Source: Clostridia bacterium (lineage in GTDB: Bacteria; Bacillota; Clostridia; Oscillospirales; Acutalibacteraceae). From it: DNA of 64,000 bases. Shown in pieces: positions 8,825 to 60,764 of the stretch. The stretch lies in contig JAFSEF010000053.1 of the NCBI GenBank assembly GCA_017435865.1, positions 1 to 64,000 of the forward strand, read 5' to 3'. Position 1 is the stretch's first letter, and the number at the start of each line of letters is the position of its first letter. The translations under genes and the position numbers were made by a program. The notes beneath the pieces were generated by a model that had not been told where the DNA came from, ran no database searches, and saw nothing but the letters and a program-made list of their open reading frames with translations.

Positions 8825-8829
8825 AATAT

Positions 8830-9014
8830 ACCCGCCTTGCCGTCATGCGGTAATTCTAACCTGCCGTCATAAGCAGGTGGGTGCCCGCCCTTCTGTTTCA
8901 CGCTCCCTTCGTCCGACAAAAGTCGGGAGGTCTGCAATCCGCAGCCGGAGTCAAGCTCCCTTAAAAAAGAATGTTGGGTTAGTATTGACCGCAAAGCCTC
9001 GCACAAGGCAGGAT
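8830..9014 (-). ncRNA. ssrS: 6S RNA
   Basis: About 185 bases read on the minus strand fold as 6S RNA, the regulator that sequesters SigA-RNA polymerase. A closing stem is formed by CCTGCCTTG and CAAGGCGGG, extended by GCGGT/ACCGC and TAACC/GGTTA with an internal bubble. An apical stem GGGAG/CTCCC holds a GAC-TTTT-GTC hairpin. The GGGCACCCACCTG segment and the CACCTGC/GCAGGT 3' hairpin are typical of Firmicute 6S RNAs. Both ends are estimated from the stem. A weak promoter (ATGACA-17-TAATTG, 9050-9022) lies inside the preceding gene; otherwise the RNA would come from a read-through transcript. Confidence 0.82.
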
Positions 9015-9027
9015 ATCAGCACAATTA

Positions 9028-26640: not shown

Positions 26641-27858
26641 TCAGAAATCAACTTCAGTGTCGTAGTAGCAGCACTTGAGGAGTTTTTCCATTTCTTCCTG
26701 GCTGGGCTGACGGGGATTGGAACCTGTGCAGGCGTCGCCGATTGCATTCTTTGCAATTTCGGGAAGCTGTGCAAGGAAAGCTTCTTCGGGAACGAAGCCC
26801 TGTTCGCAGGGATAGCTGTCAGCACCGTAGTTCTTGATGCAGTGGGGGATTCTCAGATCATCATTCAGCTTACGAAGGAAAGCAATGAGGAGCTGCACTT
26901 TTTCTTCAACGGTTTCGCCGCCGAGGTTGATGAAGTCGGCAATGTCAGCATAACGCTTTGCAGCGGTTGCATCCTTTGCATTAAAAGCGATGACCTTGGG
27001 AAGGTACATAGCATTTGCAGCACCGTGGATGATATGTGCACCGTACTTTTCAAAAGCAGCACCGGTCTTGTGAGCCATGGAGTGAACAATACCGAGAAGA
27101 GCATTGGTAAATGCCATACCTGCAAGGCACTGTGCATTGTGCATGGAATCACGCTTTGCCATATCGCCGTTGTAAGAATCAACGAGATCATTCTTGATCA
27201 TCTTGATTGCGTGAAGAGCAAGCGGATCTGTGAAGTCGCAGTTTGCAGTGGAAACATAAGCTTCAACAGCGTGGGTGATGGCATCCATACCGGTGTGAGC
27301 AACAAGCTTCTGGGGCATTGTTTCTGCAAGATCGGGATCAACGATGGCAACGTCGGGAGTGATTTCGAAGTCAGCAATGGGGTATTTGATGCCCTTTGCA
27401 TAGTCGGTGATGATGGAGAAAGCAGTCACTTCTGTAGCTGTGCCGGAAGTGGAGGAAATTGCACAGAAGTGAGCCTTGCGGCGAAGCTTCGGAAGGCCGA
27501 AAACCTTGCACATATCTTCGAATGTAACTTCGGGATATTCGTATTTGATCCACATTGCCTTTGCAGCATCGATGGGGGAACCGCCGCCCATAGCGATGAT
27601 CCAGTCGGGTTCAAAAGCAAGCATTGCGTCTGCACCCTTCATAACGGTTTCAACGGAGGGATCGGGTTCAATGCCGTCAATGACCTGTACTTCCATACCT
27701 GCTTCGTTGAGGTATGCAATTGCTTTATCAAGGAAGCCGAAACGCTTCATGGAGCCGCCGCCGACACAGATAACGGCTTTTTTGCCTTCAAATGTCTTGA
27801 GTGCTTCGAGAGCACCTTTGCCGTGGTAGAGATCTCTGGGGAGAGTGAATCTTGCCAT
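26641..27858 (-). CDS. Iron-containing alcohol dehydrogenase
   Basis: A 405-residue group III (Fe-dependent) alcohol dehydrogenase. The NAD-binding GGGSPIDAAKAM motif is at about 94-105; the STSGTATEVTAFSII segment and the metal-binding His residues in IVHSMAHKTG and HGAANA are intact. It most likely reduces an aldehyde to an alcohol during fermentation. AGGAGG lies upstream of the ATG; promoter and terminator make it monocistronic. Clostridial relatives are often Rex targets, but I see no clear Rex site here. Confidence 0.93.
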   Translation of the reverse strand: MARFTLPRDLYHGKGALEALKTFEGKKAVICVGGGSMKRFGFLDKAIAYLNEAGMEVQVIDGIEPDPSVETVMKGADAMLAFEPDWIIAMGGGSPIDAAKAMWIKYEYPEVTFEDMCKVFGLPKLRRKAHFCAISSTSGTATEVTAFSIITDYAKGIKYPIADFEITPDVAIVDPDLAETMPQKLVAHTGMDAITHAVEAYVSTANCDFTDPLALHAIKMIKNDLVDSYNGDMAKRDSMHNAQCLAGMAFTNALLGIVHSMAHKTGAAFEKYGAHIIHGAANAMYLPKVIAFNAKDATAAKRYADIADFINLGGETVEEKVQLLIAFLRKLNDDLRIPHCIKNYGADSYPCEQGFVPEEAFLAQLPEIAKNAIGDACTGSNPRQPSQEEMEKLLKCCYYDTEVDF

Positions 27859-40716: not shown

Positions 40717-41483
40717 ATTTTCTTCTCCAATCCTGCAAAAATGACTTTGAGCAACAGCAAGAACAGCTTTTCAATTCCTACGCTCAGTATAACAATGATC
40801 AGTGTCCATGCAAACAGATCCTTTGAATCAAAGTACAGCTTCGCATAATACAGCATTTCACCGATCGAATCTTTCGGTATGCCGATGACTTCCGCAGCAA
40901 TGCCTGCTTTCCACGCAAGTCCCATGCCGGTCGAACAAGCGGATAATAAAAACGGTTTGACAGCAGGGAAACGCACAAGCAGAAATCGTTTGAAAAACGA
41001 GAAATGAAACAGGTCGGCACACTGCAGCATTTTCGGATCGGTGTTTTTGTACCCCTGCAAAAGATTGTTATACAGAATCGGTAATGCCATTAAAAAAGAG
41101 ATAAAAACCGATAATTTGTTGCCACTGAGCCAGATGAGGCTGATAACAATAAAGGATGCCACCGGGACGGTTTTGACCGTCAGCAGAAAAGGACGGAAAA
41201 AGATTTCGAGTACGGGAAATCTGCCGGCAGCCGCAGCAAGAACAACTGCACAACCGAGGGCAAGAAAGAATCCGGCAGTGATATGCCCTGCAGAACGCAA
41301 AACAATTGCTGCAAAGGTCTCTGATTGCAGTAATTCAAACACTCGTCTGAGCACCTGCAGAGGGGATGCAATCAGCACATCCGCATGAATCCAAAGCGAT
41401 GCCGCCTGCCACATGAATATGGCAAGCAGCACCGCCAAGGTGTTGAGTATTATTTTTTTGACATCAATAGCAGAAGTCCTCAC
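40713..41483 (-). CDS. ABC importer permease (SsuC/TauC/NrtB type)
   Basis: A 256-residue inner-membrane permease with about six helices. The EAA-like loop (SIGEMLYYAKLYFDSKDLFAW preceded by GLAWKAGIAAEVIGIP) is typical of nitrate/sulfonate/taurine-type permeases. The GTG start at 41483 is preferred because GGAGG lies 11 bases upstream; an ATG 13 codons earlier lacks a ribosome site. It overlaps the binding-protein gene by 20 bases. Confidence 0.9.
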   Translation of the reverse strand: MRTSAIDVKKIILNTLAVLLAIFMWQAASLWIHADVLIASPLQVLRRVFELLQSETFAAIVLRSAGHITAGFFLALGCAVVLAAAAGRFPVLEIFFRPFLLTVKTVPVASFIVISLIWLSGNKLSVFISFLMALPILYNNLLQGYKNTDPKMLQCADLFHFSFFKRFLLVRFPAVKPFLLSACSTGMGLAWKAGIAAEVIGIPKDSIGEMLYYAKLYFDSKDLFAWTLIIVILSVGIEKLFLLLLKVIFAGLEKKI

Positions 41484-42489
41484 CGGGAAGATTTCCTCCG
41501 ATCGAAGCGGGATTTTGTTCATAAAGCACAGTCAGATATGCTGTCAGAGCAGATGCCATTTCTTCACCGTCAAGATAAACAATGTTGCACTGCGGAATTG
41601 CTTTTTTTGCAACTGCGGCAGCGAAAATGTCAAACTTTTCTACCAATGCAGCAGCATCTTCTGTGTTGGTGTTGACATAATCAACACTTGCTTTGTATTC
41701 ATTCAGGAAAGCTGTAACAGCTTCGGGATTGTTTGCAATGAAGTCATTTCTTGCGACCACAACACCTGTTACCAGCTTGCTGCCGTTGTCAAGTTTGTTC
41801 CATTCATCATTCAGATTGATAGCGGTACGAAGTCCTTCAACTTTCTGCGATGCAACCGTTACATAAGGCTGGGGAAGCATTGCAATGCCTTCTTCTGCAG
41901 TTGCAAGAACGCTGACGATTTCCGTTGCTTCACTGCGGAATTCGATGGTGACATCGTTGTCGGGGTCAATGCCGTTCTGTGTCAGCAGATAACGCAGGCT
42001 GTATTCGGGTGTTGTGCCTTTGCCTGTTGCATAAATTGTTTTGCCGATGAGATCTTCAAAACTGTTGACGGATTCACCTTTTTCAACAATGTAAAGAACG
42101 CCGAGTGTATTGATTGCAAGAACACTGACAGCACCCTGTGTTTTATTGTAAAGAACACTTGCAAGGTTTGCGGGTACAGCGGCAATGTCAAGTTCACCCT
42201 TGATGAGCTTCGGTGCGATTTCATCTGCAGTGCCTGCAATGGTAAAATCATAAGTGCCGCTTACGGTGTTGTCTTCCATGATTTTGACCATACCGATGGA
42301 AGTCGGACCTTTCATGCCGGCAACACGGATGGGAGCTGCATCGGAAGGAGTGATTTCTTCCACTGCGTCAGCAACTGTTGTTGCATCGGGTTCACTTGCT
42401 TGTGTCGGGTCGGTTGTGGTGTTGGTGCAGGCAGCAAATGCTGTCAGCATCAGGACGAGGGAAAGGATGAGTGCTAAATACTTTTTCAT
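41464..42489 (-). CDS. ABC importer substrate-binding lipoprotein
   Basis: A 341-residue lipoprotein. The signal ends in lipobox TAFAAC (Cys21). A Thr/Asp-rich linker follows, then an NMT1/SsuA-like bilobed domain (IRVAGMKGPTSIGMVKIM, KGELDIAAVPANLASVLYN, GTTPEYSLRYLL). This fold binds sulfonates, nitrate, pyrimidine precursors or similar; the ligand is not readable. AGGAG precedes the ATG. First gene of the importer operon; its promoter has a CRP-type site at -41.5. Confidence 0.92.
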   Translation of the reverse strand: MKKYLALILSLVLMLTAFAACTNTTTDPTQASEPDATTVADAVEEITPSDAAPIRVAGMKGPTSIGMVKIMEDNTVSGTYDFTIAGTADEIAPKLIKGELDIAAVPANLASVLYNKTQGAVSVLAINTLGVLYIVEKGESVNSFEDLIGKTIYATGKGTTPEYSLRYLLTQNGIDPDNDVTIEFRSEATEIVSVLATAEEGIAMLPQPYVTVASQKVEGLRTAINLNDEWNKLDNGSKLVTGVVVARNDFIANNPEAVTAFLNEYKASVDYVNTNTEDAAALVEKFDIFAAAVAKKAIPQCNIVYLDGEEMASALTAYLTVLYEQNPASIGGNLPGEDFCY

Positions 42490-42527
42490 GATTTGTTTTC
42501 TCCTGTTTTAATTTTTTTTTCATCTGT

Positions 42528-55691: not shown

Positions 55692-56597
55692 ATGATTGAT
55701 TTTAAACATGTAACAAAAACATACAAGAATGGGACAAAAGCTCTCAATGATGTTTCATTGCACATTGACAAGGGGGAATTTGTCTTTATTCTCGGTGCTT
55801 CGGGTGCAGGTAAAAGTACATTCCTGAAAACGCTGATGCGTGAAGAATTGCCCACATCGGGTTCTGTGAAAGTCAACGGTATTGATCTGATCAGTATCAA
55901 ACCGAGAAAAATTCCGTATTTCCGCAGAACACTCGGCATCGTTTTTCAGGATTTCCGTTTGATTCCGACCATGACAGTGTATGACAATGTCGCATTTGCC
56001 ATGTACTGCACAGGTGCCAGAGCAAAAGAGATTTCCAGACGTGTTGCCTATGCACTCAGCCTTGTCGGTCTGAGCCAGAAGGCACGTAATTATCCCAATG
56101 AGCTTTCCGGCGGTGAGCAACAGCGTGTTGCTCTTGCAAGAGCACTTGTCAACAAGGCAGAAATTATCATCGCGGACGAACCCACCGGTAACATTGACCC
56201 TGAAATGTCCCGTGAAATCGTCGATCTGCTCAATCATCTGAACAAAAACAACGGTACAACCATCGTCATGGTAACACATGAACATGAACTGATCAAGCAG
56301 TACAATAAGCGTGTTATCACCATCAAGGACGGTTGTGTTGTGTCTGATACTGCACATCCCGAAATTGCTGCAGGTATGCAGAATAACGGTGAAGTGAATG
56401 TAGCTTCTTCTGCAGGTTTTTATCATCCGCCTGTTGAAAAAGTCGAAATTGAAAACTTCCTGCAGAGTTACGGTTCCGCTGATGATCAGTTTGCCGATAT
56501 CAGCGACGGTGCAGAACTTGCAGGTTCCAATGGTGCCGATTTACGTTCTTCGGGCGTGTCCGATGCTTCTGCATCGAATAAAAAGGTATCGGATTAA
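55692..56597 (+). CDS. ftsE: Cell division ATPase FtsE
   Basis: A 301-residue ATPase that with FtsX controls septal or lateral peptidoglycan hydrolases. Walker A is GASGAGKST (35-43), the signature is LSGGEQQRVALARAL, Walker B is IIIADEPTGNIDPE. It carries a ~70-residue C-terminal extension (Ser/Gly/Asp-rich, no clear fold) beyond the usual ~230. GGGAGG precedes the ATG. First gene of ftsE-ftsX-envC. Confidence 0.95.
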   Translation: MIDFKHVTKTYKNGTKALNDVSLHIDKGEFVFILGASGAGKSTFLKTLMREELPTSGSVKVNGIDLISIKPRKIPYFRRTLGIVFQDFRLIPTMTVYDNVAFAMYCTGARAKEISRRVAYALSLVGLSQKARNYPNELSGGEQQRVALARALVNKAEIIIADEPTGNIDPEMSREIVDLLNHLNKNNGTTIVMVTHEHELIKQYNKRVITIKDGCVVSDTAHPEIAAGMQNNGEVNVASSAGFYHPPVEKVEIENFLQSYGSADDQFADISDGAELAGSNGADLRSSGVSDASASNKKVSD

Positions 56598-56612: not shown

Positions 56613-57548
56613 ATGAAAAGAAGAGGTAGTATTCGTTATCTTATTTCCGAAGGTTTCCGCAATCTTCATGTAAACCGTCTTATGTCGGTCGCATCCGTTG
56701 CTGTTCTCGTTGCTTGTCTTGTTATGATCGGTAGTGCCGTTTTGCTGTTTCTGAACGTCGATGTTGCCGTTGAAAAAGTCGGTCAGCAGAATATCATTAT
56801 GGTTTTTGTTTAAGATACGGCGGATGAAACAAGCAGGGAAACAAATCTTTCCGATATGCAGAACAAACTGCAGATGATTGATAATATTTCCGATATCTCG
56901 CTTGTCAGACGTGAAGAAGGATTTGAGGACATTCTTGATGACCTCGAAGGCAATGCCTCTGTTTTGTCGGAAGCAGATTCTTCATTCCTGCCTGATGCAT
57001 TCCGCATCACCGTCAAGGATATGAATCTTTTTAATGATACTGTCAATGCCGTTGCTGCTGTGCCGGGTATTCTGCATGTGCGTCAGAATTCTGATCTTGC
57101 ATACCGTTTGCAGCATATCAGCCAGGCAATCACCTACATCAGCCTCGGTATTATCGTGTTGTTGCTTTTGGTTGCTTTGTTTATCATCGCAAACACAATC
57201 CGTATCACCATGCATTCCAGAAGACTTGAAATCAGCATTATGAAAGCTGTCGGTGCAACCAATTGGTTCATCAGAACTCCCTTCCTGGTGGAAGGCATTG
57301 TGCTGGGTACCATTGCCGCAATTCTGAGTCTCGGTTTGTTGTTTGCTCTTTACACACTTGCAGGTACCGCTCTGCAGAATGTGTTCAGTATTTTCAATTC
57401 TGATGTGATTCCGTTTGCCAATTATGTACTGCCTATTTTTGGCGGCTTCCTTGCAATCAGTGTCATCACAGGCGGCCTGGGAAGTATTTTCAGTATCGGT
57501 AAATATCTCAAAGAACAGGGAGGCGTTGTGCTCAATGAAGAAGAATAA
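56613..57548 (+). pseudogene. ftsX: ftsX interrupted by an in-frame TAA
   Basis: Cell division permease FtsX, split in one frame by a single TAA at 56811-56813 (codon 67). The first part (66 codons) has SEGFRNLHVNRLMSVASVAVLVACLVMIG with TM1 and ends IIMVFV. The second part continues without frameshift: outer domain, then three membrane helices (ITYISLGIIVLLLLVALFI, GIVLGTIAAILSLGLLFALYT, YVLPIFGGFLAISVITGG) with the MHSRRLEISIMKAVGAT motif. No ribosome site precedes the next ATG (56856). Without the stop the protein would have 311 residues, a normal FtsX length. ftsE and envC look intact, so a sequencing error, a recent mutation or read-through must be considered. Confidence 0.85.
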
Positions 57549-59028
57549 TAAGGCAAAACGCATTGTTGCTCTTGTTATTTCCGTGCTGCTTCTGATTGCA
57601 TCTGTTCCTTTTGCAGCAACTGCAAACGAAGCAAACCTGACAGATGAAGAAAAGAATGTCATTGAAGGTCTCAGACAGCAGCAGGCTGAACTGGATGCTA
57701 AAATTGAAGATGCTTACAATTCAATTGATGCCCTGAAAGATGATATTGAAAATGAACAGAAATATGCCGAACAGCTCACGCAGCAACTGAATAATCTCGA
57801 TCAGCAGATCACGGTTCTCAATCAGAGCATTTCTGTTTATGATGAAGATATCGAAACGCTTGACGAACAGATCAGAGCCAATACCGTCATCAGCAAGAAC
57901 CTTGAAACGGATATGTACAGATATCGTCAGAAAGCGATTGACCTGCATCAGCTCAAACAGGATACAATGGTTGAGCTGCAGGAAAGACTTCGCTATATGT
58001 ACATGACCGGCGAGTCAACCGAAATCGAAGCACTGCTTGATTCCAACAATCTGTATTCATTTTTGTTGCGTCTTGAACTGATGAACGGCATTGCCGAATA
58101 TGATAATGACCTGATAACAAAATTGCAGGGCAGCATTGCAGGTGCGCAGGATGCCGAAGTGCAGTATCAGCAGAAAGCCGAAGCAAAGCTTGCTGTTATT
58201 CAGCAGCTTGAAGACGATACCGTATCGCTTGAACAGCAGAAAACAGAAGCTGAAGCAGCACGTGCAAAGCTTGAAGTTACACAGGAAGAACACCATGAAC
58301 TGTATGTTGCAGCCATGGACAATATCAGTGCTCTTGATAAAGAGAGTGAAGAGTATGAAATGCTTGTTGCTACTTATGATGCAGACAGAGCAAGCTTTGA
58401 TGCCGAAATTGAACGTCTGATTGAAGAATACAACAGTCAGCATGCCGCAGAAGCAAGCATTGCAGCTTCCATTTCCGAATCTGCATCCATCGAAGCTGCA
58501 TCAAGATATCAGGCAAGTCTTGACGCATCCAATGCCATGTCGCAGTATACCACGACAACACAGCAGTATGTGCCGCAGACTACCAAGCCTGTACAGACAA
58601 CACCCTCCGGCGGCAGTTCTTCCGGATTCATTCATCCGCTGTCCCAGTATTCCGATATTTACATTTCATCTCCTTACGGAAACCGAATCGAACCTGCAAC
58701 CGGTTCATCAGGATTCCATACCGGTACGGACTTCTGTTCTTATTCCGGTACAATGGGTAAGAATGTTGTTGCAGCAGCAGCCGGTACGGTTGTAACGGCA
58801 ACATGGCATTCTTCTTACGGTTACTATGTGCTGATTTCTCATGGTAACAATATTTACACCTTGTATGCTCACAACAGTGAACTGCTTGTCAGCGAAGGCG
58901 ATTCCGTTGCACAGGGACAGGTCATTTCTCATGCAGGTTCCACGGGCTATTCAACCGGTGCACACGTTCACTTTGAAGTGCGTGTAAACGGTTCCACCAC
59001 AGATCCGATGGGTTATGTATCTCTTTGA
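57535..59028 (+). CDS. Murein hydrolase/activator (EnvC/PcsB-like, M23)
   Basis: A 497-residue exported protein. A signal peptide covers about 1-28. A long coiled coil (about 35-300, Gln/Glu/Leu-rich) is the FtsX-docking part. A Ser/Thr/Gln/Pro linker leads to a C-terminal LytM/M23 domain (about 385-495), with metal ligands in HTGTDFCS and HVHFEVR and YAHNSELLVSEGD. These are intact, so it may cut peptidoglycan itself, unlike inactive EnvC. It overlaps the ftsX 3' end by 14 bases, GGGAGG upstream, and with FtsEX forms the FtsEX-PcsB/EnvC system. Confidence 0.92.
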   Translation: MKKNNKAKRIVALVISVLLLIASVPFAATANEANLTDEEKNVIEGLRQQQAELDAKIEDAYNSIDALKDDIENEQKYAEQLTQQLNNLDQQITVLNQSISVYDEDIETLDEQIRANTVISKNLETDMYRYRQKAIDLHQLKQDTMVELQERLRYMYMTGESTEIEALLDSNNLYSFLLRLELMNGIAEYDNDLITKLQGSIAGAQDAEVQYQQKAEAKLAVIQQLEDDTVSLEQQKTEAEAARAKLEVTQEEHHELYVAAMDNISALDKESEEYEMLVATYDADRASFDAEIERLIEEYNSQHAAEASIAASISESASIEAASRYQASLDASNAMSQYTTTTQQYVPQTTKPVQTTPSGGSSSGFIHPLSQYSDIYISSPYGNRIEPATGSSGFHTGTDFCSYSGTMGKNVVAAAAGTVVTATWHSSYGYYVLISHGNNIYTLYAHNSELLVSEGDSVAQGQVISHAGSTGYSTGAHVHFEVRVNGSTTDPMGYVSL

Positions 59029-59152: not shown

Positions 59153-60100
59153 ATGAAAACAGTTATCTATATCGACGTTCTTCTTGTTACCAATTTTTTT
59201 ATCAATTTGCTGCTTCTTTCTGCAACAGCCGCTTTTTTAAGAATCAGAGTACACAGGCTGAGGTTGTTGTGCGGCACTCTGATCGGTACTGCTTGCTCAC
59301 TTGTTTTGTTGATTCCCGATATCGGATTTGTTATGAATTTGATTCTGAAAACCGTTGTCAGCATTTGTATGTCCTGTGTGGTTTTTGCGGGAAAGAATTT
59401 AAGAGGAATCTGCAGACAATCCTTTTGTTTTTTTGCTGTGAGTTGTTTTTTTGCAGGATTCATGCTTTTGATCAAAACAGTTTTTTCTTCCGAGACTTTG
59501 ATTGTAAACAACGCGACAACCTATTTTGCCGTCGGCAGCGGACAAATAGTTGTCATTTCTGCCGTTTGTTATGTGTGTCTGCGGCTGATTATCAATTTTG
59601 TGCATCGTACACAGGTAGATAAAAAAGTAGTGCGTGTATCCGTAATCTGTGATGCAAAGCAGGTTGATTTAAAAGCATTTGTTGACAGTGGTAATCATCT
59701 GTTTGATCCCATTTCGCAAAAGGCCGTGTCGCTTGTGAACTTTAATTCGGTCAGTGAATTGTTACCGACTGATCTGTTTTCATTTTTCAGCGGAGAGTTG
59801 TCTGTCGGAAGCATTCCTGTTAGTGCGTGGAATCGAAGAATCTGTTTGATTCCTGCTCATTTTGCTGTCGGTGAATCTTTGCTGCCTGCTTTTCGTGCTG
59901 ATAAAATGATCATCATCACACAAGAAGGTACATTTGTTGCAGAGAATCCGTTGCTTGCTGTGACCAAGGCGGATTTTTTTTCAGACAATACTTCCGTTTT
60001 GCTGCATCCGTCGATGCTCAACGAAGAACAACAACAGGAGAGGATACAATATGAAACTATTACGCAGCAGGGGAATACTTTTTCTTCTCAGAACGGTTAA
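59153..60100 (+). CDS. spoIIGA: Sporulation SigE-processing protease SpoIIGA
   Basis: A 315-residue sporulation protease. Five membrane helices fill about 1-150; the cytosolic aspartic-protease-like domain has the catalytic Asp in FVDSGNHLFDP. It cleaves pro-SigE at the sporulation septum when signalled by SpoIIR. ATG at 59153 begins the family-typical MKTVIYIDVLLVTNFFIN; the ribosome site GGGTG is weak. It overlaps sigE by 50 bases. Confidence 0.93.
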   Translation: MKTVIYIDVLLVTNFFINLLLLSATAAFLRIRVHRLRLLCGTLIGTACSLVLLIPDIGFVMNLILKTVVSICMSCVVFAGKNLRGICRQSFCFFAVSCFFAGFMLLIKTVFSSETLIVNNATTYFAVGSGQIVVISAVCYVCLRLIINFVHRTQVDKKVVRVSVICDAKQVDLKAFVDSGNHLFDPISQKAVSLVNFNSVSELLPTDLFSFFSGELSVGSIPVSAWNRRICLIPAHFAVGESLLPAFRADKMIIITQEGTFVAENPLLAVTKADFFSDNTSVLLHPSMLNEEQQQERIQYETITQQGNTFSSQNG

Positions 60101-60764
60101 AGCAGAGTCCACGCTGTATTATGTAAATACCCCGCAGATGCTTCCTGCACCCTTGAATAAGGAGGAAGAAGCTGCATTGATGGACAAAATACGTCAAGGT
60201 GATGAATCAGCAAGAGAACCTTTGATCGTGCACAATCTGCGGCTTGTGGTTTACATAGCACAAAAATTTGACAATGCAGGTGTACAGCAGGAGGATCTTG
60301 TTTCCATCGGTACAATCGGACTCATCAAAGCTGTCAATACCTTTTGTCCTGATCGCAATATAAAGCTCGCAACCTATGCAAGCCGATGCATCGGAAATGA
60401 AATTCTGATGTACCTGCGAAAAACCGGGAATCTGAAAGCGGAAGTGTCGCTGGATGAACCGCTGAATACAGATTGGGACGGAAATGAATTGCATCTCGGG
60501 GATGTGCTGACAGACCTCGATGCTTCTGTGGGAGCCAATGTGGAAACAGAAGATGAAATTGCATTGCTGCTGCAATGTGTGGAGCATCTGCCGGACAGAG
60601 AACGTGAAATAATCACACTTCGATTTGGTCTCAACGGAGAAAAAGAACTGACACAAAAGGAGGTTGCCGACAAACTTCATATCTCACAAAGTTACATATC
60701 ACGCCTTGAAAAGAAGATTCTGATACGGCTGAAAGAAGAAATAGAAAAGGCGGAAAAAATATAG
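60051..60764 (+). CDS. sigE: RNA polymerase sigma factor SigE (mother cell)
   Basis: A 237-residue sporulation sigma factor made as an inactive precursor. The pro-sequence covers about residues 1-23, and Tyr23-Tyr24 (LYYVN) mark the likely SpoIIGA cut. Region 2 has NLRLVVYIAQKFDNAGVQQEDLVSIGTIGLIKAV and KLATYASRCIGNEILMYLR; region 4 has ELTQKEVADKLHISQSYISRLEKKIL. AGGAGAGG precedes the ATG inside spoIIGA. sigG, which follows in Bacillus, is not next; a terminator ends the operon. Confidence 0.97.
   Translation: MKLLRSRGILFLLRTVKAESTLYYVNTPQMLPAPLNKEEEAALMDKIRQGDESAREPLIVHNLRLVVYIAQKFDNAGVQQEDLVSIGTIGLIKAVNTFCPDRNIKLATYASRCIGNEILMYLRKTGNLKAEVSLDEPLNTDWDGNELHLGDVLTDLDASVGANVETEDEIALLLQCVEHLPDREREIITLRFGLNGEKELTQKEVADKLHISQSYISRLEKKILIRLKEEIEKAEKI

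Follow-up and report, generated by a model that had tools for sequence, protein, structure and literature searches.

FtsEX systems for the control of peptidoglycan hydrolases are described in two forms that are close to the locus reported here, FtsEX-PcsB and FtsEX-CwlO. FtsE and FtsX are termed essential in Streptococcus pneumoniae in the titles of published work. The TM1 helix of pneumococcal FtsX is connected to the extracellular domain by strand beta1 (PMC6355983). In Bacillus subtilis, loss of FtsE or FtsX is described as making cells dependent on LytE, with wall elongation blocked only upon LytE depletion (PMC6705773). The dependence on LytE indicates that other hydrolases can stand in.

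We analyzed a 64,000-nucleotide stretch of a draft clostridial genome (the window) that carries the order ftsE, ftsX, M23 hydrolase gene. The locus resembles the FtsEX-PcsB and FtsEX-CwlO systems in this order and in the matches to the FtsX model NF038347 that flank a stop codon within ftsX; it differs from them by that stop, a TAA at codon 67, found in this genome only.

The interrupted ftsX gene and its neighbors

The ftsX frame (56613..57548, plus strand) starts at ATG 56613, with GGAGGG immediately 5' of it, and ends at its own TAA (57546-57548). The initial annotation had described the gene as split by a single in-frame TAA (56811..56813, plus strand), and our results bear this out. The 66 codons 5' of the stop (56613..56810, plus strand), the N-terminal part of the gene, matched positions 4-63 of NF038347 (E 9.7e-9). 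In the same frame, the stop is followed by 244 codons (56814..57548, plus strand) that matched positions 65-296 (E 1.6e-53). Since the two matches adjoin, the stop interrupts neighboring stretches of one protein. No second stop or frameshift was present in the 244 codons 3' of the TAA, which encode the extracellular domain and the permease C-terminal domain. The Pfam matches (FtsX_ECD and FtsX) were confined to this part; Pfam gave no match in the 66-aa part 5' of the stop, which, by analogy with described FtsX proteins, probably contains the first membrane helix. With the stop entered as X, the frame matched NF038347 over its full length at 223.8 bits, slightly below the cut-off of 225, and the closest unbroken relatives gave comparable E-values against the model. 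A search of the 133 contigs of the assembly (84.81% complete) for a second ftsX, a possibility raised earlier, recovered this one copy only; the four other matches in the genome were weak and partial and lay inside long open frames.

The gene is flanked by ftsE and a coiled-coil hydrolase gene, an order common to two of the nearest relatives (G003 and G005). The ATP-binding partner of FtsX, ftsE (55692..56597, plus strand), ends in TAA and scored 281.5 bits against the curated FtsE model TIGR02673 (cut-off 264.85), in agreement with the earlier description of the gene as intact. The hydrolase gene (57535..59028, plus strand), whose probable start at 57535 gives a 14-base overlap with the 3' end of ftsX, was intact as well, as the initial annotation had stated, but the name envC given to it there was loose: the product reached 48.7 bits against the EnvC model (cut-off 270) and 24.4 bits against the PcsB model (cut-off 450). 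Pfam placed a Peptidase_M23 domain in it (E 2.8e-30) and a CC_PcsB match (E 3.5e-6) that is just above its cut-off, and PcsB-like coiled-coil M23 peptidoglycan hydrolase is the better description. Located 3' of the hydrolase gene, at 59153-60761 of the window, are a SpoIIGA-like gene and then a SigE-like sporulation sigma factor gene. Both matches are below their NCBIfam cut-offs (152.2 bits vs 209.55 for SpoIIGA and 322.4 bits vs 339 for SigE), and the pair suggests that the host is a spore former.

Comparison with ftsX of relatives

We searched 25 other genomes of the same genus for ftsX (E <= 1e-20) and recovered a match in 20, none of which has a stop inside. The alignment at codon 67 that had been proposed as a check showed a sense codon in all 20 genes (Asp in 9, Glu in 7, Asn in 2, Lys in 1 and Ser in 1), so that the position is variable and mainly acidic in the genus. 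The nearest ftsX relatives, G003, G004 and G005, were 69-71% identical. A scan of genome_contigs gave 57 ftsX loci, and none of the 12 that were aligned contains a stop, 7 of the 12 apparently being genomes already in the genus count. No same-species copy of ftsX was recovered in that scan, which may omit records of the genome itself, and the best locus was 71% identical. FtsX was matched in 277 of 300 genomes sampled from the family and missed in 23; no stop within FtsX was present among the matches listed, which did not include the gene studied here. A search of viral_contigs with an exact 30-base pattern taken from directly 3' of the stop gave no match. The nearest named relatives are metagenome-assembled genomes (MAGs) of Oscillospiraceae or Clostridia from goat caecum and other sources, one of them at a coverage of 2.3.

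The window and the genomes G003 and G005 share alignable stretches that are short only, and an error rate for the window is therefore not obtainable from them. A minus-strand frame at 26644-27858 of the window was 98-99% identical in amino-acid sequence to both genomes, compared to 51-78% for the genes of the ftsE-ftsX-hydrolase cluster; the gene is either unusually conserved or recently moved.

We then examined the gene for signs of decay with 14 representatives at < 80% identity, the gene itself included. At columns invariant in the other 13 representatives, the interrupted ftsX departed at none of 23 before the stop and none of 56 after it (0/79 in all), and the 13 themselves showed 0-1 departures before the stop position and 0-3 after it. 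Its differences from G003, G004 and G005 are mainly at third codon positions. The lack of decay indicates that the stop is either recent or not real. Pairwise dN/dS between this gene and the nearest three was 0.11-0.15 before the stop and 0.13-0.19 after it, compared to 0.04-0.06 among those three themselves in the part after the stop; the values are rough, as dS is near or above 1 and thus near saturation. The raised ratio could hint at relaxed selection, yet the same rise was found before the stop.

Possible decoding of the stop codon

The initial annotation had offered three explanations for the stop, namely a sequence error, a fresh null allele and programmed read-through, and the first two stand. 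Programmed or leaky read-through that still yields some full-length FtsX would account for a frame that is open and conserved 3' of the stop. Against this, the stop is absent from all 20 genus relatives with ftsX, and TAA serves as an ordinary terminator in the operon and the contig, ending ftsE, ftsX itself and 71 of the 148 frames of >= 300 codons on the 251-kb contig (C32), a count to which shadow frames may contribute. None of the 39 tRNA genes recovered (38 by the genome search and one, Ser(gct) in L142, by ARAGORN) has a stop-reading anticodon (TTA, CTA or TCA) in this roughly 85% complete genome, and reassignment of TAA to a sense codon is not indicated. The 120 bases 3' of the stop folded at -23.8 kcal/mol compared to a shuffle mean of -20.79 (z -0.96), and 38 of 200 shuffles folded equally well or better, giving no sign of a stimulating structure. 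Recoding of the TAA is unsupported by anything found, and we consider read-through very unlikely. That a real, leaky stop would supply a little full-length FtsX, and thereby keep hydrolase activity low and tunable, is more improbable still.

We also considered a two-piece FtsX, in which the 66-aa peptide works together with a separately started remainder of 230 aa. In its favor, the frame offers a further start past the stop, the nearest being ATG 56856, 42 bases downstream. The sequence preceding it, GGGAAACAAATCTTTCCGAT, is purine-rich but lies about 16 bases from the ATG, and no usable ribosome site was found 5' of this codon, as the initial annotation had also reported. A product started at 56856 would in addition lack the first membrane helix and, judging from the pneumococcal structure, the extracellular domain's first strand, and the gene is split in none of the relatives compared. 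We regard this arrangement as the least probable of those considered.

Sequence error or null allele

The lone stop in ftsX appears to reflect an error in the sequence or a recently broken copy peculiar to this genome, rather than a new way of reading genes. It resembles single-stop pseudogenes and base errors of draft genomes in that one private stop is present and the frame and its conservation are otherwise undisturbed. We lean towards a base error or a strain-mixture artefact of the assembly. The absence of decay in ftsX, the intact state of its partner genes and the draft status of the assembly lead us to rank this slightly above a null allele. The privacy of the stop (0/20 genus genes and 0/12 genome_contigs loci) and the MAG origin of the relatives also favor an error. 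The stop would then probably stem from a wrong base peculiar to this draft genome, the gene having the look of a working ftsX in other respects; living cells would make ordinary full-length FtsX, which would connect the FtsE ATPase with the external PcsB-like hydrolase.

An error of this kind has to be set against the quality of the contig at large. We screened the 251-kb contig by codon usage for stops flanked on each side by 40 open codons, a design blind to genes split < 40 codons from an end. The screen gave 737 stops, and at 50 of them the stop's own frame was the best on both sides. The ftsX stop ranked second of the 50 by its weaker side; the top-ranked stop, at 70323, resembles by eye a gene boundary with a start directly after it. 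Pfam scans at four other stops identified two as gene boundaries (YicC / RemA-like and MFS transporter / aldehyde dehydrogenase); the stop at 119144 (minus strand) had a match on neither side, and that at 41466 (minus strand) had an NMT1-like match before it and none after. The ftsX stop was the only one of the 50 demonstrated to split one family, stops beyond those scanned with Pfam having been judged by eye alone. A very error-rich assembly is therefore not indicated, and the contig is not littered with such stops, which argues against an error. As a separate observation, the minus strand at 41338-42507 of the window carries the NMT1-like binding-protein gene and then a coding-like frame of 42 codons past its stop.

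A real and recent null allele is a credible possibility, if a less than even one. The sampled cells would have lost FtsX function through the stop, and FtsE would perhaps lack its partner in the membrane and the hydrolase its control by FtsX, other hydrolases or controls covering for the loss. FtsEX appears dispensable in the family, and the lineages that lack it show that a null is tolerable, which is a further point against an error. We requeried 15 genomes without a good FtsX match, namely the 5 of the genus and 10 of the 23 from the family sample, the latter chosen mostly for high completeness. FtsE was absent in 14 of the 15 (E <= 1e-70, a threshold that a very divergent FtsE could escape); in the fifteenth, G030, ftsE is present and ftsX runs off the contig end. 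Both genes are missing in G009, G010, G011, G018, G019, G032, G045, G055, G136, G163, G174, G178, G259 and G294, including a single-contig genome (G032), and FtsEX seems to have been lost as a pair in these relatives. Three of them (G055, G178 and G259) belong to one other genus (g31) and all lack both genes, so the loss seems to extend to whole family lineages. The joint absence of the two genes indicates that a real null could survive, and the stand-in hydrolases of the B. subtilis LytE case (PMC6705773) point the same way. Two features do not fit a null so readily: losses elsewhere took ftsE and ftsX together, whereas here both neighbors, ftsE and the gene for the hydrolase, are intact, and ftsX itself is free of decay.

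A lone private stop in ftsX is an ordinary finding of little consequence. Were the null allele real, the locus would represent a step towards the FtsEX loss of some family lineages, with ftsX broken ahead of ftsE; if the stop is an error, it offers only a caution against a biological reading of isolated stops in draft assemblies. Elsewhere in the window, a 6S RNA was identified at 8825-9017 on the minus strand, with a score of 64 bits (gathering score 46.4).
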